A DNA stretch of 64,000 nucleotides, taken from Zymoseptoria tritici IPO323. Lineage: Eukaryota; Ascomycota; Dothideomycetes; Mycosphaerellales; Mycosphaerellaceae. This document shows positions 1,250 through 60,004 of the stretch, one piece after another. The first letter of the stretch is position 1. Each line of letters begins with the position of its first letter. The notes below the pieces were generated by a model. That model was not told the origin of the DNA. It made no database searches and saw only the letters and a program-made list of their open reading frames with translations. Where the stretch lies: assembly GCF_000219625.1 (NCBI RefSeq), contig NC_018200.1, forward strand, positions 372,001 through 436,000, written 5' to 3'. Made by a program: the position numbers and the translations under genes.

Positions 1250-4200
1250 TGTAGGCTAGACGGTCTCGTCTTCGCCTCTTGCTAGGTGCTAGGACCTAGA
1301 AGCAATCTTTGTATCCGAGAGAAAGGTAGTAAGGTGTTTCCGGAGTTCCTTATCTTCTACTATTTCTAGTAGAGATTGTACTTGTCGTAGCGGTAGTAGC
1401 CTAAATACATCGTAAATAGGGCAGCTACATACGAGGTGTTCTGCTGTTTCTCGTCGTCCGCAAGGGCAGTCTAGCGTCGTTACGTGTCTAAAGCGATAGA
1501 GATAGGACTTTAGGTATCCGTGTCCTAATAGGATAGTATAGAAGGCACTAGTTAAAGCGCGTCTTCCTCCTATTCTATGTTTTCCTAGCGAGCTCCATAG
1601 AAATCGACTAAGGTAGCTATTTGTATTCCTAGGTACCTTATTAATCTCCCGTTGTCTTACTATTTCGTATCGGGTTTTCCAGACGCTAAAGAGATCGTCT
1701 TTTGCGTAGTTAGCCCTTTCGTGTTCTACGAAATGCTTATATTGTCGGAGTCGATAATAGAGTAGTTGTATCTATGTTCTCTATCGTTTTTGCGGAAGTA
1801 TCTCTCTCGAGTCCTCGTGTCGGACTTCTCGCGTATCCGAAGGCGCGCTTTAGATAGCGAGTCTTATAGGGTGGTTTTCGGGTAGCTTTGCTACGCGTAG
1901 AGAGTATAAAATTAACTGTCTCTCTAGGCGTAGATCCGGGGGGAAGAGATTTGACTCTACTTCGGACGGGACGTTTAGGGCGGTACGGAAAACGCCTAGG
2001 ATCTTTCTATAAGCTTTACTTTGTAGAGATACTAGAGGTTTTATGCTCTTTTTCGACCGCTACTAAACCGGGGCCCTATAGTCTGCTATTATAGTAACGC
2101 AGGCTAGGTAGATCTTTCTTAACGATATAGAAGATAGACCGCGTTCGGTATTTGCTAGTCTTTCTAATCGATAGAATGCCGCTTATGCTTGTGCCGATCT
2201 TATTATAATATACTCCTTAAAGGTAAGACCGGCGTCTAGCTAAATCCTAAGCTACCTTATCGCTTTCTTTGCCGGGCGAATAATATCGCTATTTAGAAGA
2301 ATTACTAGGCAATCGGACCCTTTCCCTTTCGAGAAGTGTACTAGGTCTGTCTTTGCTAGGTCGAAAGTAATCGAGTTCTTCTTTCCTAGGTCTATTAGCC
2401 TTCTTGCCTTACGTTCTAGTACCTTAGAGTTCTTCTTAAGGGACGTAGACGAGGTAGATAGTCTAATATCGTCGACGTAGGAACTAGGAGTAACTCCTTG
2501 TAGCGAGAAGAATATGTCGCGCGTATAGATAAGAAAGAGGATAGGAGACATCGGGCTGCCTTACGGAACGCCGATCTCTACGTCCTAGAATTCCTGTATC
2601 TGTCTGTCGAATGCTATTCGTAGGCGTCTATTGCTTATAAACGACTAAACCTAATGTATAAGGCTATGCGGAAGCCTTAACTGGATTATTATTCTTAACA
2701 GTCGGTTCTTTGTAACGTAGTCGTATGCTCCTCTTATATCGAGGAAGATAACCGAAGTCTTCTTTTTCTTTCTTCGATTCTCCTCGATTTCGTTCGTTAA
2801 GAGAAGCACCGTATCGATAGCCGATTTCTTCTTTCGCCCTCCTAACTACGAGTCGTGTAGAAGGGGCTTCGTCTCTGCGATAATCCCTAGGCGTTTTGCG
2901 AGTATTCTCTTACTAATCTTACCGAGGTAGTTTAGGAGAGAGATAACTTGGTAGGCCTTAGGGACCGAATAGTCTGGTTTTCCCGGCTTTGGTAGAACTA
3001 CGCCTGTCGCAACTTTCCAGCATCGGGGGTAGTGTCCTTCGTCGAGTAGCCTACTATATATACGTAGAAAGGTAATAGGAATAGCGCCGTACGCTTTACT
3101 AATAATAGCTTGCGTAATACCGTCTAGGCCCGGCGTTTTTCCTTTTACTATCTTCGTACTATAGGCGGCAGCGAGTTCCTCTTCGGTTAGCGTAGTCCAG
3201 CCCTAATCCCCGGCTATATACGCTTCCTAACGGCTAGGTAGAGGTTCCTCGGCAGGAGGGCGCGGAAATAAGGCTTCGGAGAAGGCCTTACATTTCCCCT
3301 CGAAAGAATCTTTGTTGTTTATCGTAGGTATCTGTCTTCGGCTGCTATTCCTAGTATAGGATATAGCTTTAAAGATAGATTTCGAGTCTTCTTTTTCGAG
3401 GAAAGCGTTCTAGTAGTTCTTCTTAGCTGTTTTAATAGCTTGGAAGTACTCGTTTCTCGCTTTCGTATACGCCTCTTTCTCGTCTAGCGTCGGCGTACGT
3501 CCGTAGGTAAAGGTCTATCTATATGTTCTAGACATTGTACGGCGTAGCGTGCGTAGCTCTCTATTCCACTAAGGTTTTGCGTAGGCGTGTACTACTTTCT
3601 CTAGGATTGCTCCCCGCATCGATTCGGTAATATACGAGGTAAAGGAGTCTACGATGTCGTCGAGGGAGTTCGTATAGTTAATAGACGTCGCCTTGCTTAT
3701 TAGGAGATCTGTAAACAGTTCCTAATCCGCGGAAGCTATATCTAAAACTACTTTCTTCTGTTAGGCTCGATCTTGCGCGCTAATAAGGTCTATAGATATA
3801 GCCTTATAGTCTAAGCCTATCGGAATTGTTCTCTAGTCGATTTCTTTCGTAGATAAGGATCCTCTTGTAAACGTGAGGTCTAGGACCGACTCTGCGTCTA
3901 GGTGCGGCCTATAGAAGGTCCCGATACCTATCGTATTATATAAAGTAAAGCCCTAGTCTTCTATCTACTCTATAAATTCGCGGGCACTAGTAGTATCCTT
4001 TCCCCTCGGATCCTAGGACGGGTGTCTAAGGTTAAAGTCTCCTACTAGTAGAGTGTTTGGAAGGAACGTGTTGCGTAAAGAGTAGAGGCTTCTCTCTGTT
4101 GTTCGTCGGTTTTACGGGTTCTCGGTATCCCGAAGGTCCTTCTCGTTGTAGAGATTAACTATCTAGATCTTGTTGCCCTTCTTGTCTGAAATAACAAAGG

Positions 4201-44100: not shown

Positions 44101-46138
44101 TGTTGGAATAAACGAGTGGATAAAGCGATACAAAGCTAAGTGATCTGTCTACCGAGGGGACTCGAGGCCCTTATATCCCCCTCGTGTGTATATAGATAGA
44201 ATAGCCCGTAATAGACTGCGTTATTAGCCCTGTTTCGTCCCTTTGTTTCGAGCTATATCTAGTAGGTCCTATATCTCCCGATATAGTCCCTTTATCTCCC
44301 GATATAGTCCTTCTATTTCTAATACTCCCCCTACTTCCTATACCTCTCGTAGGTTAGGAAGTCCTATTAGTAGAGTATTCGGGTATGTCCGGTTTAACTA
44401 ACGATGCCTTCGATCGATAGTTTGTCCGGGTATCGGCTTATTTCGTCGGTAGCTTATCGATTCCTATAATCGATAGCTTGTCTATATATCGACTCCTTCG
44501 GTCGATAGCGTATCGATTCCTTCGATCGATAGCTCGTTCGTATATCGACTCCTTCGGTCGATAGCGTATCGATTCCTTCGATCGATAGCTCGTTCGTATA
44601 TCGACTCCTTCGGTCGATAGCTTATCGATTCCTACGATCGATAGCTTGCTTGTATATCGACTCCTTCGGTCGATAGCCTATCGATTCCTACGATCGATAG
44701 CTTGCTCGTATATCGACTTCCTTCGGTCGATAGTATATCGATTCCTTCGATCGATATACGTTCCGGGTACTTAAAAGACGGCTTATATAAGTACTGTCTA
44801 GGCCTCCGCTTTAAGTACTTCGTTGCCGTTTAAACGAGTATTCTCGTTCGTCGAAACCGGCTCGTAATCCTTCGTTTCGAAATCCTTCGTTTCGATGTTT
44901 CCTTTCGATTCCTTTACTCCGACGCTCGTAGGGTCTCGGGTAAGTACGTCTTCGATCTCCGTAAGCCCGTACTCGGTCTCCTTAAGGCGTTGTACGATAT
45001 CGTCGAAGGATATCTTCGAAAGTCCGGCCGCCTTAAGAGCAAAGATCGTAGACCTATACTCTTCTCCTAGGCTTTTTAGGAGGATTATCTTCTTCGAGGT
45101 ATCGGTAGGCGCTTCTTCCGGGCAAAGTACCTTAACTCGGGTTTAGATTGTCGATAGTTTAGACGCCGTAGTATCGATAGACGTCGTAAACTTAAGTCCG
45201 TAGAATTCCGTAAGTAGAACTTATACTAGCTCTTCGCTAGTAGTCTCGCAGACTCCGCGTAGCTTATTAAAGCACTCTCGAGCTGTAGTAAGGCCGAGAG
45301 TGTGTACACGGTACTCGGGGCCCGCTGCGGTCTTTATAATAGCTCTTACTTTTGCGTCGTTTTGCTTCGAGTTTATAGCCTCGTTTCCGGTCGATTCTAA
45401 GGTCGATTCCGAGGGCGTAGTAGTCCGTATAGTCGATAGTAGACCTCTCGCCTCGAGTAGGTCGCTTAGTAAGTCGCTCCAGTCGAGCCAGTTGTCCGTA
45501 GATAGCCGAGGAATGCTAATAGACGTCTTATATTCCGTAACGAGGTCGTCTATTTCGAGTGCGTATAACTCTACGAGTATTTGTCGTATCGATACGATTT
45601 TTAATTTTTCGGATCCGTAAGGGCCGGTTCTATATTCCTCTAGCGTATCGCTATTATACGTCGGCGCGGCGTTGCGTAGTTGTATATCGAATCCGGCTTA
45701 TTATCGTAGGAGAGGAGAGAGATTCGGGAGCCGACGTTGTTCGGAAATCTGCCTGTTTCGGACTAGTAGATTTTACAACCGAAGTTGGACTGTAGTAATG
45801 TCTGCTTTCGGGCTAGTAGGCTTTCGAAATCCGGGGTAATGCTAAAGTGCGCTATATATATACTAAGATATATACGTTGTATATCTAGGCCGCTACTACT
45901 TCCGGGCTTATAACTATTAGAATAAACGAGTAGATAAAGCGATACAAAGCTAAGTAATCTGTCTACCGAGGGGACTCGAGGCCCTTATATCCCCCTCGTA
46001 TATATATAGATAGAATAGCCCGTAATAGACTACGTTATTAGCCCTATTTCGTCCCTTTGTTTCGAGCTATATCTAGTAGGTCCTATATCTCCCGATATAG
46101 TCCCTTTATCTCCCGATATAGTCCTTCTATTTCTAACA
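44101..46138 (-). mobile_element. Gag-only Copia-type LTR element (copy B)
   Basis: 2038 bp, same plan as copy A in reverse: 224-bp LTRs (44101-44324 and 45915-46138), primer site at 45902-45914, gag relic, palindromic minisatellite at 44435-44760, polypurine tract next to 44325, and a GTCGT target duplication. It is inserted in a beta-tubulin relic. It differs from copy A mainly by transitions, including TG/CA to TA changes in one LTR end (TATTAG for TGTTAG). Confidence 0.92.
44935..45553 (-). pseudogene. Gag relic of element B
   Basis: It aligns along its length with the gag of copy A. The start codon is ATA (45551-45553) where copy A has ATG. At least two glutamines of copy A (in LVQVLL and TIQTRV) are TAA here, all RIP-type. 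Conversely the codon that ends copy A's frame (TAA) is CGA here, so the ancestral gag was probably longer than 201 codons. Confidence 0.85.
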
Positions 46139-46271
46139 GTCGTTACCTTACTTACTCCGCTATCTACCGCGGAAAGGTGTCTATAAAGGAGGTCGAGGAC
46201 TAGATCCGCAACGTCTAGAACAAGACTACCGCCTACTTCGTTAAGTAGATCCCTAACAACGTCTAGACCGC
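46139..46271 (+). pseudogene. Beta-tubulin relic, RIP-mutated, part 1
   Basis: It reads YLTYSAIYRGKVSIKEVED, stop, IRNV, stop, NKTTAYFVK, stop, IPNNV, stop, TA. The stops fall exactly on conserved Gln (TAG from CAG) and Trp (TAG from TGG) codons of beta-tubulin. The frame continues at 60005 after Gypsy2 (LCSIPPYRLKM), with the ACCGC duplication between them. Confidence 0.9.
46267..46271. repeat. Target site duplication ACCGC, left
   Basis: ACCGC at 46267-46271 is repeated at 60005-60009, flanking the outer LTRs of Gypsy2. Confidence 0.9.
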
Positions 46272-46486
46272 TGTAAAAGGTGCAGTTAAGAATAGAGTAG
46301 CAGTATGAATCACTTCAGAACAGACTCGATTCGATACTCTCTCGGAAGGAGGAGATTCTACGTATCCTTATACTACAGGCGCAATCTAGCTCAAACGAGC
46401 TTAAAAGGCCCTAGTAGGGGTGCATATGCCGCTAAGGCAGGGGATTAGATGCCGATTGTCGGTATTCGGCGGAGGCAGATATAACA
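46272..46486 (-). repeat. 3' LTR of Gypsy2
   Basis: On the plus strand it reads TGTAAAAGGTGCAG to GCAGATATAACA. It is 215 bp, the same length as the 5' LTR, and differs from it by scattered transitions. Confidence 0.93.
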
Positions 46487-46502
46487 TAGCCCCCCTCCTT
46501 GC
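46487..46502 (-). promoter_or_regulatory. Polypurine tract of Gypsy2
   Basis: On the minus strand CAAGGAGGGGGGCTA abuts the 3' LTR, as expected for plus-strand priming. Confidence 0.8.
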
Positions 46503-46599
46503 GTAGAGCGTCGCGCTCTAAACGGTTTCTCCTCGAGTAAATTCTTTTTGGTGTTTGCCAAGTTTAATAGCCTAAGGCCTTAATTAGGGTCTACTGCGG

Positions 46600-46607
46600 C
46601 TTTAAAA
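46600..46607 (+). promoter_or_regulatory. TATA-like box of Gypsy2 antisense gene
   Basis: CTTTAAAA lies 63 bp before the first GTAAGT donor (46663). In Gypsy1 a TATATTAA lies 56 bp before its first donor. The similar spacing suggests an own promoter. Confidence 0.4.
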
Positions 46608-46856
46608 CCTAGGCTCGGATCCCTCGAGTTCTTCTCTTCTTTAACAACCTTATGCAGACTTAGTAAGTATAACTTAATCCTATCCGATAGCTAAACAGGT
46701 CTAAAAGTGCCCCCCTAAGGGGCATTTGTAGCCTATATAGTGCTAACGTAGCGTTTAGTTCCCTTCTAGCCCTATTTTCTACCAGACGACCTCGAATTTT
46801 ATCGAAAAACCGCTATTCTTACCAAACGACCCCATCCGCGACCGAACGAGCCTATT

Positions 46857-47721
46857 ATAACGCAACCCGCCTCTATCGCGACCTAACGCAAGCAATTCGC
46901 CGCTAACGGCATCTTTAAGGGCAATCCGTGCGTTAACTACCTTAACAAGCCCTTAAACAAGGCCGATTTGGCCTAGTTCTGCCTCTTTGCGCGCGAATCG
47001 CCGGATAAGTAGGCAACTAATAATAAGGACGAATATTACCTAAAGTGTCACAATTACTCCAACCGCGATTGTTTCTAGGTATGTATACATAGGGTCAAAA
47101 AGGGGGCTTTCGGGGGCTAATATAGTTAAAAGATGCCGGAACTAGTTAAAGGCGACATTACGAGGGCTAATAAGCTCCGTAGGGCCGCTATTGCCGCCGA
47201 TAGTACCGGAGCGATAGCTGCGGCGGCTTGTTCGGCCTATAAGGCGGTCTACGTACGTATTAAGGGGTATGCGTAGTTAGTTCGGGTCTGTTTAGCTCTG
47301 TTAACCCCCTTTTAGGCGCTTTAACTCCTTCACCGGTGTCAACGGCCTCTATCTGCACTAAGGCAAGGCCGAATTCGACCAGACGGGACCGCTTATACTT
47401 GGAAAGCGCGAGAAGTTGCTCGCTAAGGAGGCTGTAAAGCGAAAGAGGGAGCTTGTAAGTATTTGGGTCCCTTCTTGCCCAAAAGTGCCCTACTAACCCT
47501 AATAGGGTAAAGACGTGCCTAACACCCCCCGCAAGCGACTTATTCTAGCCTAAGGATCTACCGAGGACCGCCTAAGGCGTCGCGTTCGGGCCCTTTCGGC
47601 CGCTCTAGATACCGTCTACACCTGTGCGGGCGCTAAGAAGGGCTCGAAGGCCTCTGTTGTAGAGGGAGTGCTCCGTCCGACCGAGTACGACCTCTCTAGG
47701 GACCTTAAGCCTAAGGAATAA
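46857..47721 (+). pseudogene. Antisense four-exon gene of Gypsy2 (236 codons), unknown protein
   Basis: It lies opposite to gag-pol, between the chromodomain end and the 3' LTR. Coding exons are 46857-47078, 47133-47266, 47316-47454 and 47506-47721; introns are 54, 49 and 51 nt with GTATGT/GTATGC/GTAAGT donors, CTAAT/TTAAC/CTAAC branch-like sites and AG acceptors. Exon lengths keep one frame (phases 0, 2, 0) to TAA at 47719. A further intron (46663-46758) lies upstream. The start reads ATA (ATG by one RIP change), though the frame is open further left to 46770. Internal stops TAA, TAG, TAG, TAG (exon 1), TAA 47359, TAA 47551 are all one step from Gln. Shared with Gypsy1: KC...NRDCFQ at the end of exon 1 and NSFTGVNGLYLHQG in exon 3. 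Unknown function; the Cys pattern may bind zinc. Confidence 0.75.
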
Positions 47722-48114
47722 GCATATAAGCGCTTTTTTGTGTTTCTTTTATCTCTTTTAGCCTCTTTTGGGCTCGTTTTAGGACTAATGGGCGCGGTAA
47801 CGCCTAGGTTGTTTCTTTTTACTACGACTTGGCGACTTATAGATTAGATAGAATTAAAATAACTTTACTGTGCTTAATTGTCTCTCGTTGTGTGATAATG
47901 TCGTCCTTAGGGGCCCGTTTAGCCCCTAATTTCCCCCCCTAGGATTTTATTAGATTGAAATTCTTCTAAGGTAGAGAAAATTTTTAGGTAACTAGGAACC
48001 GGACTAAGGAGTTAGTGTGGTGTTAACTAGTGTCTTTTGGGCCTTAATAGTAACTAATAACGCGTTTGTATATCTATCGTGCTAGTCTACCGCCCTTAGT
48101 ACCTCCCGTGCTTC

Positions 48115-48340
48115 TATTAAATGCTCTTATTATAGTAGGGCTAATGTAAGTCGCAGGTTCCTAAGTGTTTTCAGACGCGGGCCAGCCCTTCTACGCGATC
48201 CTGTACATCTATCTGCCGTGTTGTTTCTTACGCTTTAGGATCTTGTCTACTACGTAAACGTCGGGTTCCTCTAATCGGATCTCCTTTAGGCTATTCTAGG
48301 CCCGTTCGGTAATTTTGGCAGGTTTTTCCTCCTCTAGTAG
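48115..48340 (-). pseudogene. Gypsy2 chromodomain, cut by Gypsy1
   Basis: The minus strand reads VYVVDKILKRKKQHGR, stop, YRIA, stop, KGWPASENT, stop, EP: the standard chromodomain pattern (YLVKWKGYP.ENTWEP) with TAG where Trp (TGG) is expected. Chromodomains steer chromovirus integrases to heterochromatin marks. Gypsy1 is inserted about 30 codons upstream of it, separating it from the integrase at 55146 and beyond. Confidence 0.85.
48336..48340. repeat. Target site duplication AGTAG, left
   Basis: AGTAG at 48336-48340 is repeated at 55141-55145, flanking Gypsy1. Confidence 0.92.
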
Positions 48341-48669
48341 TGTTAGAAGCACCTCGAGAGGGAATGTAGGCTTGCACCGAAAACAAATAGTTGTAGAATG
48401 TAACGAGTCGATTCGATAAGGAAGGGAATGGACAAGAGCGTCCCTCGAGGCTATGTACCCGCCCTTCGTGTTGCCAAATGCGTCTCTCCGCCTAGACCAG
48501 GCACCGGTCGCAGTCCAACGTCCGCTCGGGGGCCATCGTACGCCCGTAAGGTTCGTCCCTCTACAGGATGTCCCAGTCTAGGCCAGATGAGATAGCACCG
48601 GTAATCTGTGGTGCCAGGATAGTCCAGGTTGGGACAGGTAGAGGGCGTCATCGTAAGGGTGTCCTCACA
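48341..48669 (-). repeat. 3' LTR of Gypsy1
   Basis: 329 bp, plus-strand reading TGTTAGAAGCACC to GTGTCCTCACA. It is nearly identical to the 5' LTR at 54812-55140, differing by a handful of transitions. Confidence 0.95.
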
Positions 48670-48690
48670 TTGCCCCCCTCCCCTCTCTGC
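48670..48690 (-). promoter_or_regulatory. Polypurine tract of Gypsy1
   Basis: On the minus strand GAGAGGGGAGGGGGGCAA abuts the 3' LTR. Confidence 0.88.
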
Positions 48691-48777
48691 AACTAACCTC
48701 AGTTGCGGTGGAAAATTCACAAGCTATCAGCTGCCAGATGTCCCAATCTGGAAGGATTTGCGGGTCCGTGGCGTCGC

Positions 48778-48785
48778 TATATTAA
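48778..48785 (+). promoter_or_regulatory. TATA-like box of Gypsy1 antisense gene
   Basis: TATATTAA is followed by a pyrimidine-rich stretch (TTCTTCTTCC, then CTTTCTCTCTTTTTCACC), a typical fungal start region, and by a GTAAGT donor at 48834. Confidence 0.5.
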
Positions 48786-48905
48786 TTTAATTCTTCTTCC
48801 AAACTTTCTCTCTTTTTCACCAACTACCAAAAAGTAAGTAATCTAGGGTGGTACCAGTATGGTCCAGTTTGGGTCCAGCAAGGCTAACATTGGCGCAGAC
48901 ACACC

Positions 48906-49807
48906 ATATCTTCCGCCGCCGCGGCCCTCGTACGCAACGATTACGCCAAAAAGGTCCGCAACGGGGCTTTTAACCACAATCCGTACTTCAATTGCATCAA
49001 AGACGTCAAGCTAAACAAAGACTTAACCAAACTGTACCAGTTGGGGCCAGAGAAACCCATTAAGGGCATTACTACCAAATGCGCCGGCTGTCTGGACAAC
49101 AGAAATGCCGATTGCTTCCAGGTAGGATATTTCTGGACTATTCTGGAGTCTTCTAGGTCCAGGCTGACCCTAAATAGCTCCCTCCGGCCCGTAAGGGCGA
49201 GTGGGACACCATTAATGCCCAGATTCAAGCAGAGTACGCCAATCCGGTAGTAAACGCGGACAACAGGAAGAAGTTAAGGAGCAAGGTGCTCCTGTTTGCT
49301 AGTTCGATTAAGTTGTATATGCCGTTCTAGCTCATTTTGGACTAGTATGCTAACAGTTGGCGCCTTAGGGAGCTTGGAAACAGCGTTCGCGGCCCGGAGG
49401 GTCTCACTTTGCACCAGGGTACCCGCGAGTAGGACACGACGGGTCAAAAGGTTAAGAAGCGGGACAGGTCGGCCGCTGCTTACATAGAGAAGGCCGTAAG
49501 TGTACCGTTCTGGCGCATTTTGGGTCATGCTGACGTCAGGATGTAGGAGCAGGCTGCTGCCGGGACCCCGAGGGCCAAGAGAAGCCGCCTAATTAATCTA
49601 AAGGGCGCCATTACGGTCCAGTCGTTGACAGACAAGCTTAACAAGTACAAGACTGCCTTGCATCGTAACAGCAAGGCCCTAGAGAGGTTTAATTCGTACG
49701 CTAGGGGTACGGGAAAGACTAACAGGGAGGCGTTGAAGGCTTTGGTGAGCACTACGGCCGCTTAGGAGCATAGAGAGGACGCTTCGGACGAGGATAGCGA
49801 TAATTAA
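48906..49807 (+). pseudogene. Antisense four-exon gene of Gypsy1 (246 codons), unknown protein
   Basis: Coding exons 48906-49121, 49178-49314, 49369-49495 and 49547-49807 total 741 nt in one frame. Introns are 49122-49177 (56 nt, GTAGGA...CTGAC...AAATAG), 49315-49368 (54 nt, GTATAT...CTAAC...CTTAG) and 49496-49546 (51 nt, GTAAGT...CTGAC...TGTAG), phases 0, 2, 0. A 5' intron lies at 48834-48898 (CTAAC...GCGCAG). The start reads CACC-ATA-TCT, ATG by one RIP change. Only two nonsense codons occur (TAG 49430, TAG 49763), both from CAG. Exon 1 ends KCAGCLDNRNADCFQ; exon 3 has NSVRGPEGLTLHQG; exon 4 is Lys/Arg-rich and ends acidic (EDASDEDSDN). It is convergent with pol, with about 300 bp between. 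Not recognised; possible zinc-binding, perhaps nucleic-acid-binding (inference). Confidence 0.82.
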
Positions 49808-50104
49808 GCCGGTTTAGTCCAGTTGGCTCTAGCAGTGTGCAGGGTATAACAGATAACGCCATTACGCAGAGTGATGGGGCCCTTTCGAGTTATAATAGCG
49901 CAGAATAGCTTGACGTAGGCCAGAATAGTCCAGAATGGAAAGCCTTGACGCCCAAATGAAATCCCTAGAATTATTAAAAATGTTGAAGTCCAATGTCATA
50001 AAGCAAAAATGATTGAAAAATTGACCAAGGGGGTCAGCGTTTTTTCTGGAATTTACCGCGCGCAGTCGGTCCTTTCTGGCCTATTCTGCGCCGGTAGGCC
50101 CGCA

Positions 50105-53100
50105 TTGCTGCCGGGCTGATGTTAACTGCTGCTTCCCAGGAGTTCTCGGACCAGTCGTAGTCTTTCTACTTGATGAGGTACTCCCGATTGTTCAGTTCGT
50201 CTACACGTTCGGCCAGAATGGCCTCGACTTCGTATTCATTGTCCTCTCCTGCGTCGTATCGCATTATCCTGTCCTGTTTGCGACCAAACTGGTCCGGGAT
50301 AGATGGTTCTAGCAGAGAAACATAGAAGGTTGGGTAGATCTTCAGTAAGTCTAGTAGATCGAGCGTGTATGCGACGCGGTTAATGACCGCTTTTACCTTA
50401 TAAGGTCCAATATATTTGTGATCGAGCTTCGCCGAAGGTCTCAATAACCTAATGTTGCGTGTGTTAAGGTAGACTTCGTCTCCGACGTTAAAGGAGATGT
50501 CCTTCCTGTGCTCGTTCGCCCACTTAGCCATTTGCTTCTTTGTTTTGGCCAGTCTAACCCGCAGTTTCTTCTGGTTGGAAATAACGCGGTCCGTAAGTTG
50601 TGCGGCGAACGGGGCTTCTCGTCCATCCTAGCGTAGTCTAGGCCAGTGGCACCGCCGAGGGTCCCGTGTCGTGTACGCCTGGAATAGCGTAACCCCTGTT
50701 GCGGAGTGTACGCTGTCATTGTACGAGAATTCCGCGGTAGAAAGTAGGGAGGCCCAGTTGTCCTGTTCATAGTTGCAGTATGTGCGAAGATACTACTCCA
50801 GCGTCTGGTTTTGGCGCTCTATTTGCCCGTCTGTTTGAGGGTAGAACGCTGTGCTCAGTTTCCGGCGTATGCTAAGGCAGAAACAGAACGTGCTCTAGAA
50901 TTTTGAGGTTAGGATAGGCCCTCGATCCGACGTGATCGTAGCTGGTGCGCTATGGAGTCGTACGACTTCCCTTATAAACACCTCTGCGAGCTCTGCTGCG
51001 GTAATCGTCTTCTTGCATGGCGCATAATAGACCATTTTGGTACATCTGTCCACGATTACTAGGATTAAGTCGTAAGCCTGGCCCAGAAGCATACTAGGTA
51101 GCAGGTCCGTTATAAAGTCTAGCGTCACATCCTCCCATAGTGTGAGCGATAGTAGCTCTACGTGCAGCAATCCGTGAGGTTTGTGCCGCCGTGGCTTTGC
51201 CCTACTACACGCTTAACACGTTCGTGTGTAGTCCTTAACGTATTTCCTCATTTTGGGCCAGTAGAAACTCCTTTGTAGAAGTTCGAGCGTTCGAGAGAAG
51301 CCGAAGTGCCCTGCCATAGGGTCGTCGTGGCATTCCTAAAGCAGTTGGAGTCTTATGCTTCCTTCAGGTACGTAGGCTTTGCCGTCTATGTACGCGACTC
51401 CATCCTCGTTAGTCCATCGATCTGCCCAGAAAGCAGGTTCCGCTTGGTCCTTCTCCTCGTTAATCCTGTTAAAGGTCGGATCTTTCAAGAGGGCGCGTTT
51501 CAGGCGCGTTTTCAGGTCTAGGGCGTCCTTCACTACCCCTACGTACCTTACTAGTCTATTATGGTCCAGATGCGGTTAGAATGCCGTCTGGAGGAGCCGC
51601 AAGCTTGCAGACGACTCTTCGTCTGTAGCCTACCGTCCAGAGTGGTCCTTGTCCGTAAGGTCGGGCCTTCTGCTTAGTACGTCCGCCGCCCTATTAGCCT
51701 TGCCGGGTCTGTAAATAGTCCTGAAGTCGATCTGCGACAACCACTCGGCCTATCTAACCTGCCGCCTAGACAAGGTCTTAGTCGTCATAAGAGTTTGCAG
51801 GTTTGCATAATCCGTTAGTAGCTCGACCTGGTGTCGAGCCCCCTCCAGGTATTATCTAAAGTGCTTAAAGGAGTCCACGACTACTAACAGCTCAGCGTCT
51901 TCCGTAACGTAGTTCCGTTCTGCCGCGATCATCTTTCGTAAGAAGTATAATACAGGGAACCACTGCGTCTTGCCGTAGTCTTCGTATGGTTAGCTTAGGA
52001 TGCCCGAGATTGCCTCGCCTAAGGCGTCGGTTTCCACCCTACAGGGCAGTTCTGGGTTAAAATGGCGCAGGATAGGGGCTTCCGAGAACCTTTTCCGCAA
52101 TTCGTTAAAGGAAAGCACAGCTTGCTCGTCGAGCTCTAAGTATGCTCGTTCCTTCTTACGTTAGTTTACTGCCTTTTTCCCCTCCGTATAGCGGTTGAGT
52201 GCCGCAGCGAGGCGTAAGAAACCCTTAATAAAGCGCCTATAGTAGTTCGCGAAGCCGATAAAGACCCTAATGTCATGTATTAACTAGGGAAGTAGCCACT
52301 CCTGGACCGATCTGACCCGTTCTGGGTCGATCTCCAGCCCATCACGTGTAATAACGTACCCGAGGTAGTCGACGCGGTCCTTATGGAAATCGCACTTAGA
52401 CAGGTTAGCGTACAACTTGTGTTTCCGGAGGCGCTCCAGCACCTCCCGGACGTGGCCCTCGTGCTCCTTCACCGTTTTGGAGTATATAAGGATGTCGTCG
52501 AGGTAAACGACGCAGAACACGTCGATCAGCCCCACCAACGCGCTGTTGATGAAGTTTTGGAACACCGCGGGGGCATTGCAGAGCCCGAAGGGCATCACGG
52601 TGTATTCGAAATGGCCGTATCTGGTCCGGAAGGCTGTCTTCTACTCATCGCCTTCCCGGATACGGACACGGTGGTACGCGTGGCGGAGGTCTATCTTCGT
52701 AAAGTACCTAGCGCCGGCCAGCTAGTCTATTAACTCGGAAATCAAGGGAAGACCCCCCCTGTTCTTCACCGTGACCGCATTCAGGCCGCGGTAGTCGACA
52801 CAGAGGCGGAGTGTGTTGTCCTTTTTCCTCGCGAAGAGGATTAGCGCGCCCGCCGAGGATGTCGAGCGGCGAATGAAGCCGCTCTTTAGATGTTTAGGGA
52901 GCTACTTGCGCATCGCATCCATCTCTGCCTCCGACAGAGCGTACATAGGGCTGAATGGGACCCTTGCTCCCTTAACCAGGTCGATCCTGAGATCGTACGG
53001 TCCATACGGTGCCAACTCGCTAGCCAACTCCTCCGAAAAGACGTCGGAGAAGTCGGAGTACGCCGTTAGGACACCATTCTAGTCCAGTTCGAGTCCATCC

Positions 53101-53690
53101 TCGACCTCTTAGATCGACATAACGTAAAGAGCTACCTCGACTTTACCGAGACACTCCCGGTAGAACCTGTCCGGGGACACTACCGCTATCGCTTGACGCT
53201 TTTAAGGTTTCTGCCTCCAGAAGACCTTCTTCAGAGCGAAGTTAACACCCGGGTTGTACTTCTCGAGCTAGGGCATGCCGAGCACGACTTCGAAACCGTA
53301 GATACGTCCTACCTTGAACGTGTCCACGCACCCCTACGCCTTGCTAAAGGTGTCTACAGCCTTGTAGGAGTTTCTCGTTTCTCCAAAGACCTGCAGGCTC
53401 TAGCTATTCAGAGTTAGGTACTTTGTCTAGGTAGATAGCTCGGAAACCGTCCACCCTATTTCCTTTGCTAGCATAGAATCGCAGAAGTTGTCCTGGGCGC
53501 CGCTATCAATCAGGCCCCGGACCTTTCTAGACTCCCCTAGGCCGTTTAGCGTCAACTCGACGCTGATTAGGCGCCCTTGCTGGGCGCGGCGCTTTCCTAG
53601 CTCAGCCGAGCGCCGCTAATCCTCATTGTAGAGGACTTGGCCCACCCAAGCAACAGCGTCTACTTAGGGGGCGTCTCTTTCCCCGAATCC
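50105..53690 (-). pseudogene. Gypsy1 pol: protease, RT, RNase H, integrase, chromodomain
   Basis: In reading order on the minus strand: aspartic protease region near 53450-53550; RT with FGLCNAPAVFQNFINSALVG and VVYLDDILIYS (52284-52598); RNase H region about 51700-52100; zinc-binding and integrase core with TLDFITDLLPS and TSDRGPILTSKF (50895-51170); integrase C-terminus with KYIGPYKVKAVINRVAYTLD (50166-50531); and a chromodomain ending YLIK, stop (from Trp), KDYDWSENSWEAAV near 50110-50240. The polyprotein makes DNA from element RNA and inserts it. It is interrupted by RIP-type stops, so not functional. Confidence 0.88.
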
Positions 53691-54775
53691 TTCTATAGGT
53701 GCTAGTTAGTGCAGTCGCGGCGGATATGCCCGACCTGTTGGCATCCGTAGCACGTAGCCTTAGAGGGGGCCTTCGGGTTCTATTCGCCATCGCTGGTCCT
53801 TGCCTTCTTACCGTCTGGAGTAGCAGAGCCGTCGCTAGGGCGCTTCTTCGCCTACTTGGCGGACCTTTTAGTAGCCTGCCTCTTACGAGCCTCCTACTTA
53901 GAGCCCTCGTTGGCACGGTAGGCCTTTTTAGCCCTCTCCTCGGCGTCCACCAGGTTCAGTAGGGCGGTAGGGTAGTTCGAGAGGCGGTTGCGAAGGGTCT
54001 ACGGAAGGGCGCTATAGAACCTAAGGATCTTCTTGCTATCGTCCCTTTTATCGAGCTCCTTCTAGAGTGTCTTTAGCTCCTCGAGGAGTTCTTCCGGCGT
54101 GCGGTTACCTAGGGTAACCTTTTTCAGCTTCTCGTAGGCCTTCTCGCGCTGTTCGGTCTCTATGCCTATCGAGTTAAGCATAACCTCCTTTATTATAGAC
54201 CAGGTTGGCTCAGACTAGTCGTTAAGGCCGTCGACGTAGCGTTCCCAGTAGTCTTGCTAGAGCTTTCCCATGTAGTCGGCAGCAAAGTCGACCTTGCGGT
54301 CTTCGCGTTCGGCGAATCCTTCGTATCGTCTAAAGGCTCTTTCGAGGGCTCGGACCCAGTCGTCGTAGCTTGTACGCGACTTGCCCTCGAAGACTGGTAG
54401 CTCTTTTGACTTGGGGAGGTTATCCCTCGTTTTGGTATGCTAGTTAGGTTCGGAGAAGAGGTAGCGGAGGGTAGCCGTCCTTAGGTTCCCTTCTGGCGTA
54501 GGATAGTCTAGTTCGGCACGGAGTTCCTTAATCTTCTGCTAAAGGGTCAAGAACTCGAAGGTAGCGCGGGCGACTTCGTTGTCGTGCTCCCGGGTAGCCC
54601 TTTCTTCCGCGGTCTCTCCCGAGCCAGGCTGGTTGAGAAGGTTAACGTCCTACAGCTGACTAGCAGGCGTGGCCGATAGCTCCGTAGAGGAAGCGCTCGC
54701 CTGCTGTCGGGCGGAGGTGTCAGGAAGGGAATCGTCCTAACGACGGGTGACCTTTGGAGCTATGTCGGTGGTTTT
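53690..54775 (-). pseudogene. Gypsy1 gag with zinc knuckle
   Basis: It starts at an ATA (ATG by one RIP change) in GAC-ATA-GCTCCAAAGG near 54760, followed by TAG where the stub at 14846-14927 still has CAG. The core includes LPVFEGKSRTSYDDWVRALE and KAYEKLKKVTLGNRTPEELL, typical of Gypsy gag. Near the end it has CYGCQQVGHIRRDC (C-x2-C-x4-H-x4-C, about 53705-53750). Gag coats the element RNA. Confidence 0.85.
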
Positions 54776-54800
54776 CGGTACAGTTGTACGGTTGTTTTTG

Positions 54801-54810
54801 ATCGAATCGA
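54801..54810 (-). promoter_or_regulatory. Gypsy1 predicted self-primer binding site
   Basis: TCGATTCGAT (minus strand) lies one base inside the 5' LTR. Its complement ATCGAATCGA occurs in the LTR itself (54879-54888). This is the arrangement of Tf1/sushi elements, whose mRNA 5' end folds back to prime reverse transcription. No tRNA-type TGG site is seen. Confidence 0.6.
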
Positions 54811-54811
54811 A

Positions 54812-55140
54812 TGTTAGAAGCACCTCGAGAGGGAATGTAGGCTTGCACCGAAAACAAATAGTTGTAGAATGTAACGAGTCGATTCGATAAGGAAGGGAAT
54901 GGACAAGAGCGTCCCTCGAGGCTATGTACCCGCCCTTCGTGTTGCCAAATGCGTCTCTCCGCCCAGACCAGGCACCGGTCGCAGTCCAACGTCCGCTCGG
55001 GGGCCATCGTACGCCCGTAAGGTTCGTCCCTCTATAGGATGTCCTAGTCTAGGCTAGATGAGATAGCACCGGTAATCTGTGGTGCCAGGATAGTCCAGGT
55101 TGGGACAGGTAGAGGGCGTCATCGTGAGGGTGTCCTCACA
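54812..55140 (-). repeat. 5' LTR of Gypsy1
   Basis: 329 bp. Transcript start is predicted at 54888 (see self-primer), which would leave R-U5 of 77 nt. A TACATAG box lies about 40 bp upstream of that point in element orientation. Confidence 0.95.
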
Positions 55141-55145
55141 AGTAG

Positions 55146-58100
55146 GGAGATGTAGAACGTAGGATGGATGTTTATCGTTTCCGGCAGTTCTAGCGTATAC
55201 GCGACGTCGTTTACGACTCGCTTAATCCTATATAGGCCGACATACTTATAATCGAGCTTTTCCGACGGCCGGATAGACTTTAAATATCGAGTAGAGAGGT
55301 ATATACGGTTGCCAACCTTATATGTTTTCGCAGTTTTGCGAGTATTGTAGTATCGTGCGTATCTCTCCTATAACGCAGCTAGTCTTTTATATAGTGTTTT
55401 CTATAGGCCGATTACTCTGTACGCTATTTCCGCCGCACTAGGAGCTTTGCCCTCTAATTAGGGCAGGTCGGGCTATCTAGCGGTAATTAGATCGCGAACG
55501 TTATATGCTTAGAATAGTGTTACCCCTGTTGTCGCATAGACGCTATCGTTGTAAGAGAATTCGGCTACCGACAGCATCTGTGCCTAGTCGTCCTGTTCGT
55601 AGTTGTAGTACACTCGTAGGTATTGCTCTAGCGTTTGGTTCTAACGTTCCGTCTAACTGTCCGTTTAGGGGTAATATGCGGTACTTAGGCCCCTTCGGAC
55701 CCTAAGGTAGTAGCAAAGCGTGCTCTAGAACCTAGATGTAAGGATTAGTCCTCTGTCGGACGTAATTAACTTAGGAGTTCCGTAAAGGCGGAAGATTTCT
55801 CTTAGGAAGACCTCCGCGAGGGTTTCGGCGTTAATGTCCTTCCGTACGGGAATGTAGTGGGCCATTTTGGACCACCTGTCTATAACGACGAGGATTAAGT
55901 CGTATGTGTGCCCTATAAACGTACTTAGGGGCAGATCGGTAATAAAATCCAATGTTAGGTCCTCCTAGGGCCCGTTTAGTAGAGCTTCCGCATAGAGTTC
56001 TCTATATAGGCTATATCGCCGTAGCTTCGCCCTATCGCATGTCTAGCAGCTGTTTACGTAGTCCTTAACGTATTTTCTTATATCTAGCTAGTAGAACGAC
56101 CGTTATAACAGCTCCAGGGTCCGTTTAAAACCAAAGTGGCCGGCTAGGGGATCGTTATGGCACTAGCGGAGAGCTGCTAGGCGTACTAGGCCCGCCGGCA
56201 CGTACAGTTTCCGTTCGTAGAAGAGGAATTCGCCCTATATAGCCTACCTTTAGGTCCATTCCGGCGGATCCGGGTTATTTATAGCTAGTTCGACTATCGA
56301 TGCTATAGGGTTATGTTTCAGGCTTTCGCGTATTGTATTAATTAGCGGGGAGTCTAATAATTCTTCTATTAGAGTGCTCGCTATTATATACGTTTTGCTA
56401 CAGTAGGTCCTAGCGAGCTGCAGATAGTAGGTTATAACTACTATTATAGACCGAACGGGGCTAGATTCGGCCGTTATTCCCTCGGACAGACCTAGTTGGT
56501 GCCGAAGGGTGTCTAATACAGGAGCACTGTCGCTTTCGTTAATCCACCGTCCCGAGTAGTCCCTATCTTCTAAGTCTAGGCGTCTGCTTACTCCGTCCGC
56601 GGCGGCATTAAGCGACCCCGGGTTATACGTTATGCGGAAGTCGACGTTTGACAGCTGCTCTGCCTATCTTGCCTATCTTCGGCTTAGTTGCTTAGTTGTT
56701 ATAAACTATTTTAGGTTATAATAGTCTATTAAGACCTTAATTTAGTGCGAAGCGCCCTTAACGTAGTGTCTCTAGTGCTTAAAGGCCTCGACTATAGCAA
56801 GAAGCTCTTAATCGTATGTGTTATAGTTCCTTTCGGCCGCGTTTATCTTGCTAGAGAAGAAGGCTACTAGATGCTAGTGCATTTTGCCCTCTGTTTTATG
56901 CGGTTAGGATAGTACTACCCCGACAGCGAACCTAGAGGCATCTATTACGACGCGGATAGGCAGTTTTAGGTCGAAATGCCGCAAGATGGGCGCTTTAATA
57001 AACCTGGTCTTTAACTGCTAGAATGCTTGCACTGCGTTAGGTAGGAGTTCGAGGGGAACTAATTCCTCCTTTCTCTGTCGGTGTCTGCCTTTAGCACTAT
57101 TTAGGCCTCTCTCTATTAAGCAGTTTAGTAGGCTAGCTATGCGGGAGAATCCCTTAATAAACTGGCGGTAGTAGTTCGCAAATCCGATAAAGATGCGAAT
57201 GTCCCTAACTAAGGCCGGAAGGGGCTAGTTAGCAATAGCTTAGATCCTTTCTGCCTCTATTTCGACCCCTTTTAGGGTTACTACGAACCTAAGGTAGCCG
57301 ACTTGCCGCTTAAAGAACTCGCACTTTAATAGTTTGGCAAAGAGTCGGTGTCTTCTAAGTCTCTCGAGGACTATCCTAACGTGTTTCTTATAGCTTTCGG
57401 TGTCTTGTAAGTATATTAAGATATCGTCGAGGTATACTACAACATAGTAGTCTAGTAGGCCCCGGAGGGCGTAGTTTATGTATCCTTAGAACACTGCTGG
57501 GGCGTTGGTTAGCCTAAACAGGACTATAGTGTACTTAAAGTAGCTATACCTCGTCCGAAAGGCAGTTTTCTACTAGTCGCTCTCCTTAATTCGGATGCGA
57601 TAGTACGCGTCTCGTATATCTAGCTTTATAAAGAACTTTGCCGGCGCCAACTAGTCTAGAGATTCTTAGACGAGGGGCAGGGCGTGTCTATTCTTAATAA
57701 TAACGGCATTAAGGGCCCTATAGTCGACGCATAGACGTAGGCTACCGTCCTTTTTCTTTACAAAGAGGATGCCTGCCCCCGCTAGGGAGGTCGAGGGGCG
57801 GATCTACCTCTTCTCTAGGCTGTCGGTAAGGTAGTTACGCAGAGTCTCTAGTTCTGTTATAGAGAGGTTGTATAATAGGCCGTATAGGGCCTCCTTGCCT
57901 TCTTCGAGGTCGATACTAAGCTTATTCGGCCCCGTCTCGGGGAGAAGGGACTCGTTTCCTTCTGCGAAAACGTCCGCGAAATCCGAGAATTCACTTAGAA
58001 GTTCCGGTTCTTTTAGCGCGTCGTCTATGCGTTAAGCGGCAAGGGCCTAAACGCGCCCCGAAGGGATGCCGGAGGCGTCCTTCTAGAACTCTTCGGGTAA

Positions 58101-58600
58101 GACGAGCCTAACCGGCCTCTATTGTCTGCCTTTCGTCCCCTTCTAGGTAACGCTTTTGCAGATAAAGTTCACCCTCGGGTTCTATCGTTCTAGCTAGGGC
58201 ATACCGAGGACTAGTTAGAACCCGTAGATTCTTCCGACTGCGAAGGTTTCTACACATCCTCTTATGTGTCCTTAAGTGTCCGTTACTTTAAACGGGACGC
58301 GGCATTCTCCCTAAATAGCTATCCTTTAGCCGTTTAGTACTATATATTAGGCCGTTTGCCCTAACTCGGGGCTTAGGCCTAGCTCTTTAGCTACTATGTT
58401 GTCTATAAAGTTACTTTGCGCTCCGCAATCGAGCAGTGCTCGGAGTGTCTTAGTCCTATTAGGACCCTGCATCTCTACTTTAAGGCGTATTAGCCCTTCC
58501 CCTGTAGTTCGGGGAATTCCTCCTAGCTCGGCAGCCTTTCTTTAGGCCTCTAAGTACTAAACTTAACCCGCAGCGGTTAGAGGAGATCTACTATAGGCTC
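55146..58600 (-). pseudogene. Gypsy2 pol: protease, RT, RNase H, integrase
   Basis: Read leftward: RT palm VVVYLDDILIY (57410-57450), RNase H region about 56700-57000, integrase core TYDLILVVIDRWSKMAHYIP with TSDRGLILTSRF (55725-55952), and integrase C-terminal region up to the Gypsy1 junction at 55146. Almost every frame is cut by TAG/TAA/TGA of RIP type. It is more degraded than Gypsy1 pol, in line with its greater age. Confidence 0.82.
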
Positions 58601-59770
58601 TCCCTTTTCCCGACTAGTCCTTATTAGGGCATTCCTAGCGCCGGTAGCCCTCTTTGCTATATGTCTAGTAGGCGGTAGCCGACTTCTCCTTATTAGCCGC
58701 CTTTAGGGGGGTTTTAGCCCTTCTCGGCCTACTCGGGGGCTTGTTGTTTTTGTTTAGGCGCCTTCCGTTAGTCTCGTCGACGGAAGTCTTCGCTAAGCGC
58801 TTTTTGTTAAATTCCTATATCTGTCGGTACGATATATTAGCTCGTTCCTCCGCATCTACGAAGGTCGTAAGGGTAACTTGGCCCTGTTCGAGCCTGTTTC
58901 TAACCGCCGGGGTAAGAGCTCCCTTAAATTTATAGATTATCCTAGGAATGTCGGTATAACTAATCTTATCCTATTGTTCTTTTAGGTAGTTTATTAGCCC
59001 GGTTAGGGTCCTGTCGCCCTATTTAGCCTCTTTAATATTGTCTATAGCTCTTTAGGTGCGTTCGTCTTTTGTACCTATAGAATCTAGCATTACGAGCTAC
59101 ATGTCGCTCTATATTAGCTAAACAGGTGCCTTGTCGAGAAGGTAGCGCTTCTAGTGCTGCTTTTAGGGTCTCGCCATCTATTCTTTAGCGAATTCTATCT
59201 TTTCTTCGTCGGTAGCTATGCTAGCCCGGTTAATTGCTCGGTTAATGTCTTCCTACTACTATTCCTAGTCGGCGCGGTTCTTTCCCTCGAAGATGTAGGG
59301 ATTCCGGGCCTTTAGGAGCGCGTTCTTAGGGATAGATAGCCGAACTAGGGCATCGGGCAGGACAGTAGGGATAGATCCGTTCTATACCTAGGCAATGCGG
59401 TCCCTTATAGCCTTATTGCGTACCTAGAGAAGGCTAAGCTAGAGGAGGCGCTCCTATCTGGCGGTAGCGGCCTCTTCCTTGCGGATTTGTTTATTAATGT
59501 CGTCTTCTTCTCCCTTAGGTAGAGTGTCTTCTTCCTGTAGAGGGTTCTCCGGTTCTTCTTCGCCCTCGTTAGTAGTATCCTAATGCCCGATAGGTTCTTC
59601 CGGGTTTTTAGGCCCGCCTTCGGCATCTTCGTCGTCGCTAACGGCAGTCTAAGTAGAGGTTTCTATAGTCTCCGGGTCGTTAGCAGGTTCGTTCGTACGG
59701 CGACGGGTGCTCTTGCTCCCTAATAGGCCGGGACGAGACGAAGCTATCTCGGAGGTAATTCGTCGTGCTG
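58600..59770 (-). pseudogene. Gypsy2 gag, zinc knuckle destroyed
   Basis: The region upstream of pol has short open pieces (59405-59626, 59649-59831 minus). The CCHC knuckle can be located at about 58630-58680, but conserved Cys and His codons read TAC/TAT (Tyr), the result of G-to-A and C-to-T changes, with TAG beside them. Confidence 0.65.
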
Positions 59771-59778
59771 TAGGGTAG

Positions 59779-59787
59779 ATCGAATCG
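59779..59787 (-). promoter_or_regulatory. Gypsy2 predicted self-primer binding site
   Basis: CGATTCGAT (minus strand) lies two bases inside the 5' LTR. The complement ATCGAATCG is in the LTR at 59845-59853. It is the same arrangement as Gypsy1, although the LTRs are otherwise different. Confidence 0.55.
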
Positions 59788-59789
59788 TA

Positions 59790-60004
59790 TGTAAAAGGTG
59801 CAGTTAAGAATAGAGTAGCAGTATAAATCACTTTAGAACAGACTCGATTCGATACTCTCTCGGAAGGAGGAGATTCTACGTATCCTTATACTATAGGCGC
59901 AATCTAGCTTAAACGAGCTTAAAAGGCCCTAGTAGGGGTGCATATGCCGCTGAGGTAGGGGATTAGATGCCGATTGTCGGTATTCGGCGGAGGCAGATGT
60001 GACA
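59790..60004 (-). repeat. 5' LTR of Gypsy2
   Basis: 215 bp, ending GCAGATGTGACA on the plus strand and followed by the ACCGC duplication. Confidence 0.93.

Follow-up and report, generated by a model that had tools for sequence, protein, structure and literature searches.

A putative spliced gene antisense to gag-pol in three Ty3/Gypsy retrotransposon families of Zymoseptoria tritici

Can a long terminal repeat (LTR) retrotransposon keep a gene with spliceosomal introns of its own? This question is raised by a Ty3/Gypsy element of Zymoseptoria tritici IPO323, located in a stretch of 64,000 nucleotides on contig 19 (NC_018200.1, positions 372,001 to 436,000). This whole stretch is termed the window, and its numbering is used unless a contig or locus is given. 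A preliminary description of the window had proposed an antisense four-exon frame of 246 codons with three introns of 51–56 nt between pol and the 3' LTR of the element; its coordinates, lengths, and GT...AG intron ends agree with our reading. The spliced frame comprises 741 nt (246 codons plus the stop), and the introns measure 56, 54, and 51 nt. As described before, the window copy is damaged by two internal TAG codons and by an ATA where the start is expected. The best explanation, to which we assign a probability of roughly 0.7, is an additional antisense gene of the Ty3/Gypsy group, whose transcript would arise from a promoter located just internal to the 3' LTR and would be spliced. The frame is composed as follows:

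48906..49121, plus strand: exon 1, 216 nt; ATA at the start; cysteine motif
49122..49177, plus strand: intron 1, phase 0
49178..49314, plus strand: exon 2, 137 nt
49315..49368, plus strand: intron 2, phase 2
49369..49495, plus strand: exon 3, 127 nt; contains the stop common to all 40 copies
49496..49546, plus strand: intron 3, phase 0
49547..49807, plus strand: exon 4, 261 nt with terminal TAA; basic segment and acidic end

The host element and the spliced frame

The host element (family 1) is 6.8 kb long and looks complete. It was inserted into the pol of another Gypsy element (family 3) and consists of the following parts:

48341..55140, minus strand (gag-pol): family-1 Ty3/Gypsy element with LTRs, TG...CA ends, AGTAG duplication, and matches to reverse transcriptase (RT) and SH3_Tf2-1; sits inside the family-3 element
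48341..48669, minus strand: 3' LTR
54812..55140, minus strand: 5' LTR

The two LTRs are 329 nt each and 98.5% identical, and the 5-bp target duplication is perfect. The domain matches, RT and a Tf2-1-like SH3 domain, come from pieces of pol on the minus strand; a match to integrase lies below the curated cut-off. The position of the frame between the end of pol and the 3' LTR and its orientation opposite to gag-pol are those of the plant antisense genes classified as aORF-3R. Repeat-induced point mutation (RIP) is a fungal mutation process that hits repeats, and a RIP-like dinucleotide ratio characterizes the element (TA/AT 1.57 versus 0.43 at 28–38 kb). The frame had been said to contain far fewer stops than gag-pol, which is borne out by 2 stops in 246 codons versus at least 47 in approximately 1530 in any single minus-strand frame, a count in which frame changes within gag-pol were not traced.

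Protein searches returned a single database protein matching the antisense gene, the public gene model P0001 of Z. tritici ST99CH_1A5 (138 residues), which joins exons 1, 2, and 3 at the identical two junctions. By eye, the three introns of the window copy are mutually alike around a TTCT[AG]G...TTCTGG-like stretch, which is also seen in non-coding sequence flanking the gene.

Copies of the gene within and beyond family 1

The genome searched comprised 39,686,251 bases in 21 contigs. In the DNA search for family 1, 40 of 47 candidates were scored and all 40 were examined. The expectation that a homologous spliced frame should recur in other copies was confirmed, since all 40 keep the layout. 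The start codon is ATG in 29 of them, and the donors of introns 1, 2, and 3 are GT in 39, 30, and 39 copies, respectively, with AT in the exceptions. The acceptors of all three introns are AG in 40/40. In-frame stops occur at 12 codon positions over the 40 copies. Eleven of these positions are sense codons in other copies, nearly everywhere for glutamine or tryptophan, and this restriction of nearly all stops to such codons is the mark of RIP. The twelfth position is TAG in 40/40 copies (49430–49432 in the window). Using exon 1 in a protein search, 46 family-1 loci were found. Of the six loci beyond the first 40, one is fragmentary and another is interrupted by an insertion; the layout is retained in the other four, one of which has a stop at a thirteenth codon position.

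The same search yielded 21 loci at 41–46% identity (family 2), of which 12 were used to read the gene structure. Where pol was covered, it marks these loci as a related Gypsy family (the longest tblastx stretch shows 64% identity), and the gene has the same place and orientation relative to pol as in family 1. Exons 1 to 3 (216, 137, and 127 nt) are equal in length to those of family 1, and exon 4 measures 252 nt. The family-2 introns measure 53, 57, and 49 nt and agree with those of family 1 in position and phase (0, 2, 0). An ATG start is present in 11 of the 12 copies; the donors are GT in 12, 11, and 6 copies for introns 1 to 3, with AT in the rest, and the acceptors are AG in all. Stops were found at 14 codons, nine of which are sense in another copy and five of which are stops in every copy ungapped there. 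The nucleotide identity between families 1 and 2 is 51% in exons 1–3, and the intron sequences align poorly (window versus the family-2 copy L055).

A third version was recognized in three regions downstream of pol that were taken from other Gypsy loci (L066, L067, and L068). L067 carries it antisense to its pol (tblastn E = 8e-8), and L068 contains a family-3 gene copy adjoining another element. The L066 region gave no match to the antisense gene; its copy probably lies beyond an insertion, as a match was found approximately 9 kb from its RT. By exon 1, family 3 comprises 52 loci. One of its elements is the one split by the family-1 insertion in the window (46272–48340 and 55141–60004), with LTRs of approximately 215 nt and a perfect 5-bp target duplication (ACCGC):

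46272..48340, minus strand: 3' part of the family-3 element, 95% identical to L067; ends and duplication
46272–46486, minus strand: its 3' LTR
55141..60004, minus strand: remainder of the element; RT match C19:429222-429569; the alignment to other copies excludes 55453–59789
59790–60004, minus strand: its 5' LTR
approximately 46759..47721, plus strand: family-3 antisense gene; start codon not fixed, outer ends placed by eye
47079–47132, 47267–47315, and 47455–47505, plus strand: introns of this gene

The family-3 introns, of 54, 49, and 51 nt, match those of family 1 in phase and fall at corresponding places; exons 2 and 3 measure 134 and 139 nt. Conserved place, phase, and splice signals of the introns are thus found in three families, whose RTs are 45% to 75% or so identical to each other. 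Judged from these comparisons, the gene belongs to the conserved content of three Gypsy families. The proposal of a retrotransposon gene with introns therefore stands with regard to the coding frame and to the introns, which are kept in the copies and in two related families. It was incomplete in that the gene also occurs outside this element, and the suggested look beside other Gypsy elements gave two further families with the same intron places. Two repeats lie beside the nested elements, a 56-nt tandem repeat (44399–44718) and a pair of 225-nt direct repeats (44103–44327 and 45917–46141), which are 1814 nt apart and adjoin the elements.

A fourth family probably carries a diverged version, judging from a match to family 2 with E = 6.5e-4 (L070 945-1643, C3:2592400-2594900). 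Nearly full-length matches were obtained for 9 loci among 13 entries, at 3419, 3418, and 3141 nt from the RT in the three loci checked. In the corresponding part, this version allows an intronless reading and is apparently unspliced. The case is weaker than for families 1 to 3 because, among the six frames, this one is not the most open. The motif GGTATAACAGATAACG occurs downstream of the antisense gene (window approximately 49843–49870; L055; L070 approximately 1700) and is common to families 1, 2, and 4 despite differing surroundings.

The association with RT was scanned at 150 RT matches scored of 278 candidates. The antisense gene was located on the opposite strand 2–6 kb downstream in 97 of the 150, and its distance to the RT is mostly constant within a family (approximately 3379, 3357, and 3508 nt). 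It accompanies 40 of 43 RT matches at 80–100% identity and 19 of 21 at 66–79%, so that, like an aORF-3R, it is present in most copies of the family. The corresponding numbers are 8 of 23 at 55–65% and 30 of 63 at 44–54%. Some RT matches without the gene are interrupted copies, for example, the family-3 element of the window, and others belong to families in which the exon-1 search gave no relative. Given its recurrence in related families, the antisense gene is probably old within the Gypsy families.

A further Gypsy family has an antisense open reading frame (ORF) of 130 codons, acidic and then basic, whose sequence is unrelated to that of the gene reported here (L069 1085-2396, C10:1625800-1628300). 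It is free of stops in 13 of 14 loci at 74–100% identity and lies 3902–3938 nt from the RT match in 11 of 13 loci.

Coding capacity and competing readings

The stop at 49430–49432 may mark a hot spot of RIP or serve as an actual terminator of translation. In the latter case, the functional product would be the 138-residue protein of exons 1–3, and the remainder would be a 3' untranslated region (3'-UTR). This is suggested by its presence in 40/40 family-1 copies, by the homologous stop in 12/12 family-2 copies, and by P0001, which terminates at this very codon. However, the similarity between families 1 and 2 runs on past the common stop (E = 5e-8), as does the similarity to family 3 (E = 0.005), in which the corresponding codon is a sense codon. 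Moreover, intron 3 lies beyond the stop and occupies the same place in all three families. We therefore regard a product of exons 1–3 only as unlikely.

The frame is too well conserved to have arisen by chance. A chance frame is ruled out, as both family 2 and family 3 have a homologous spliced frame, and a sense-strand gene at the same place was rejected as well, because the minus-strand frames score lower in the following comparison. The mean BLOSUM62 score per codon between families 1 and 2 in exons 1–3 is 1.98 in the proposed frame and 0.40, 0.39, 0.70, 0.73, and 0.47 in the five other frames (370 pairs of 37 of the 40 family-1 and 10 of the 12 family-2 copies). L029, L038, and L042 of family 1, which have indels, were left out of this test, the transversion counts, and the exon-4 counts; for family 2, L059 was left out of the exon-4 count, and L059 and L048 were left out of the BLOSUM62 test. 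RIP makes no transversions. Between the window copy and L055, transversions in exons 1–3 affect 55 of 157 third positions versus 40 of 157 first and 35 of 157 second positions (p = 0.012). By these substitution patterns, the antisense gene is conserved at the protein level.

Conservation of this kind bears on another reading, in which the locus produces a regulatory non-coding antisense RNA, for example as a source of double-stranded RNA, and the frame is a by-product. In Blumeria hordei, spliced antisense transcripts of LTR elements, detected by long reads and cDNA, are described as non-coding and without meaningful peptides in the pertinent passages of PMC10648671. The elements of that fungus resemble the gene reported here in having splice sites on the antisense strand, a likeness drawn from the published description. 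A non-coding RNA would also be in line with the comparison within family 1, in which selection on the protein is not apparent. It would leave unexplained why protein conservation is confined to one frame at 51% nucleotide identity and why exon lengths and phases are equal between families, and we consider it quite unlikely.

Several observations weigh against the coding antisense gene. Not one of the 40 family-1 copies is free of stops. Exon 4 is only weakly conserved, with window–L055 transversions at 27, 25, and 29 of 81 first, second, and third positions. Selection within the family, for which the preliminary description had proposed to look, was not detected: transversions within family 1 occur at 16 of 741 coding versus 15 of 513 non-coding sites (p = 0.46) and are distributed as 6, 5, and 5 over the codon positions, which indicates no constraint. 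Fewer changes in the exons than in longer flanks (35 of 499 sites) were seen at first glance; these flanks are gapped, and the difference was gone with shorter flanks. Support for selection comes from the comparison between families, with family 1 appearing neutral within itself.

The gene could also have been captured once from the host in reverse orientation and since been carried along as a passenger that does nothing for the element. The retained introns would fit an antisense capture, and any function for the element is putative. On the other hand, the gene is present in three families as far apart as their RTs indicate, with a conserved protein, and genome searches with exon 1 and exon 4, the two exons used singly as queries, gave copies in elements only. 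A captured passenger is, in our view, very unlikely.

The putative product and its predicted expression

The preferred reading, an additional spliced antisense gene, includes a promoter of its own. Two candidate features lie between the 3' LTR and exon 1:

48778..48833, plus strand: candidate promoter and transcription start region, A+T-rich and then pyrimidine-rich, proposed by eye
48834..48898, plus strand: candidate intron of the 5'-UTR, 65 nt, GTAAGT...GCTAAC...CAG, coordinates by eye

The first tract is partly conserved with family 2, and a similar tract was found by eye in family 3; in the second, the donor and branch-site blocks are conserved in family 2 (window versus L055). These features are consistent with an own promoter, for which the tract is a candidate, and the splice signals are consistent with the predicted splicing of the antisense transcript. 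The predicted transcript would begin close to the inner end of the 3' LTR, run counter to gag-pol, and then be spliced. The introns would pass through retrotransposition because they are carried antisense on the genomic RNA and cannot be spliced out there, an argument of the preliminary description that we consider sound. With the introns in this orientation, the protein would be made only by nuclear transcription of an integrated copy.

Families 1–3 share six cysteines (C-x2-C-x13-C-x14..21-C-x2-C-x4..7-C), two of which are mutated to tyrosine in the window copy. A basic segment follows the cysteines, and in families 1 and 2 the protein terminates in an acidic stretch. Pfam profile searches with the antisense protein gave no match at E up to 10, including PF04195 (TRP28) and the Gal4-type Zn2Cys6 profile. 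The first-loop spacing of the latter is C-x2-C-x6-C, which differs from the C-x2-C-x13-C of the antisense protein. Sequence searches of the PDB gave no convincing match; two matches to ribosomal protein eS1 (E 0.05–0.06) were taken as chance. The single-sequence structure model of P0001 (mean predicted local distance difference test score, pLDDT, 48) was too poor for use, and 83 pattern matches in viral contigs included no relative. The negative domain searches also weigh against the preferred reading, and zinc binding, nuclear location, and regulation are deduced with less certainty from composition and analogy. The product may be a small protein of the nucleus that has a basic segment and binds zinc through a domain of six cysteines, and it might regulate the transcription of the element itself or its treatment by host chromatin, as is proposed for gene23 of the maize element Grande and comparable to HBZ of human T-cell leukemia virus type 1 (HTLV-1).

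Antisense genes of this kind are already known. The plant aORF-3R genes (Grande gene23, RIRE2, Retand TRP28, and PvRetro13) are additional antisense genes as well, and for gene23, a nuclear protein and an own promoter are reported in the relevant passages of PMC7264820 and PMC11963269. In contrast to the gene reported here with its three introns, the word "intron" has 0 occurrences in the available text of these two papers. Retand encodes a TRP28 domain (PF04195), whereas the protein reported here has no Pfam domain. HBZ is an antisense gene near the 3' LTR with a nuclear product, according to passages of PMC11963269. The likeness to the antisense gene is drawn from position and orientation. 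HBZ is a bZIP protein and is spliced, whereas the protein described here is cysteine-rich.

It had been stated that antisense ORFs are known from plants and that none with conserved introns is known from fungi. The first part needs to be extended, as one has already been published for fungal Gypsy elements, namely brtn, which belongs to the Boty-like retrotransposons of Botrytis cinerea and Sclerotinia sclerotiorum, according to a passage in PMC7264820; the work (Zhao et al., 2011) is also cited in passages of PMC8365987 and PMC4227169. Judged from its description, brtn shares with the gene reported here its additional, antisense character and its place in a fungal Ty3/Gypsy element, and no Botrytis protein was among the matches in our protein searches. 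The second part held within the titles and abstract openings surveyed, a scope that did not include the brtn paper: none of them reports conserved introns in an antisense gene of fungi. Such a gene is likewise unmentioned in the term-matched passages of three Zymoseptoria papers (PMC10936205, PMC10711317, and PMC4502367). The kind of gene is therefore known, and the protein family with introns shared across element families is new as far as our searches reach.

A more far-reaching interpretation is offered tentatively, as we consider it somewhat doubtful: an HBZ-like antisense gene with introns, coding for a nuclear regulator that binds zinc, may have persisted in a fungal Gypsy lineage while at least three families diverged. 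The gene would be expressed only from integrated copies via nuclear splicing, and some of the spliced antisense "long non-coding RNAs" of fungal elements may be mRNAs of such genes. LTR retrotransposons are usually viewed as gag-pol alone, and the families described here would have kept a further gene, whose antisense placement illustrates a way for elements to retain genes that are spliced. Two questions become testable, whether the product acts on element transcription or host silencing and whether fungal antisense transcripts are truly non-coding. Such genes may have been overlooked in fungi with active RIP, because hardly any copy stays open.
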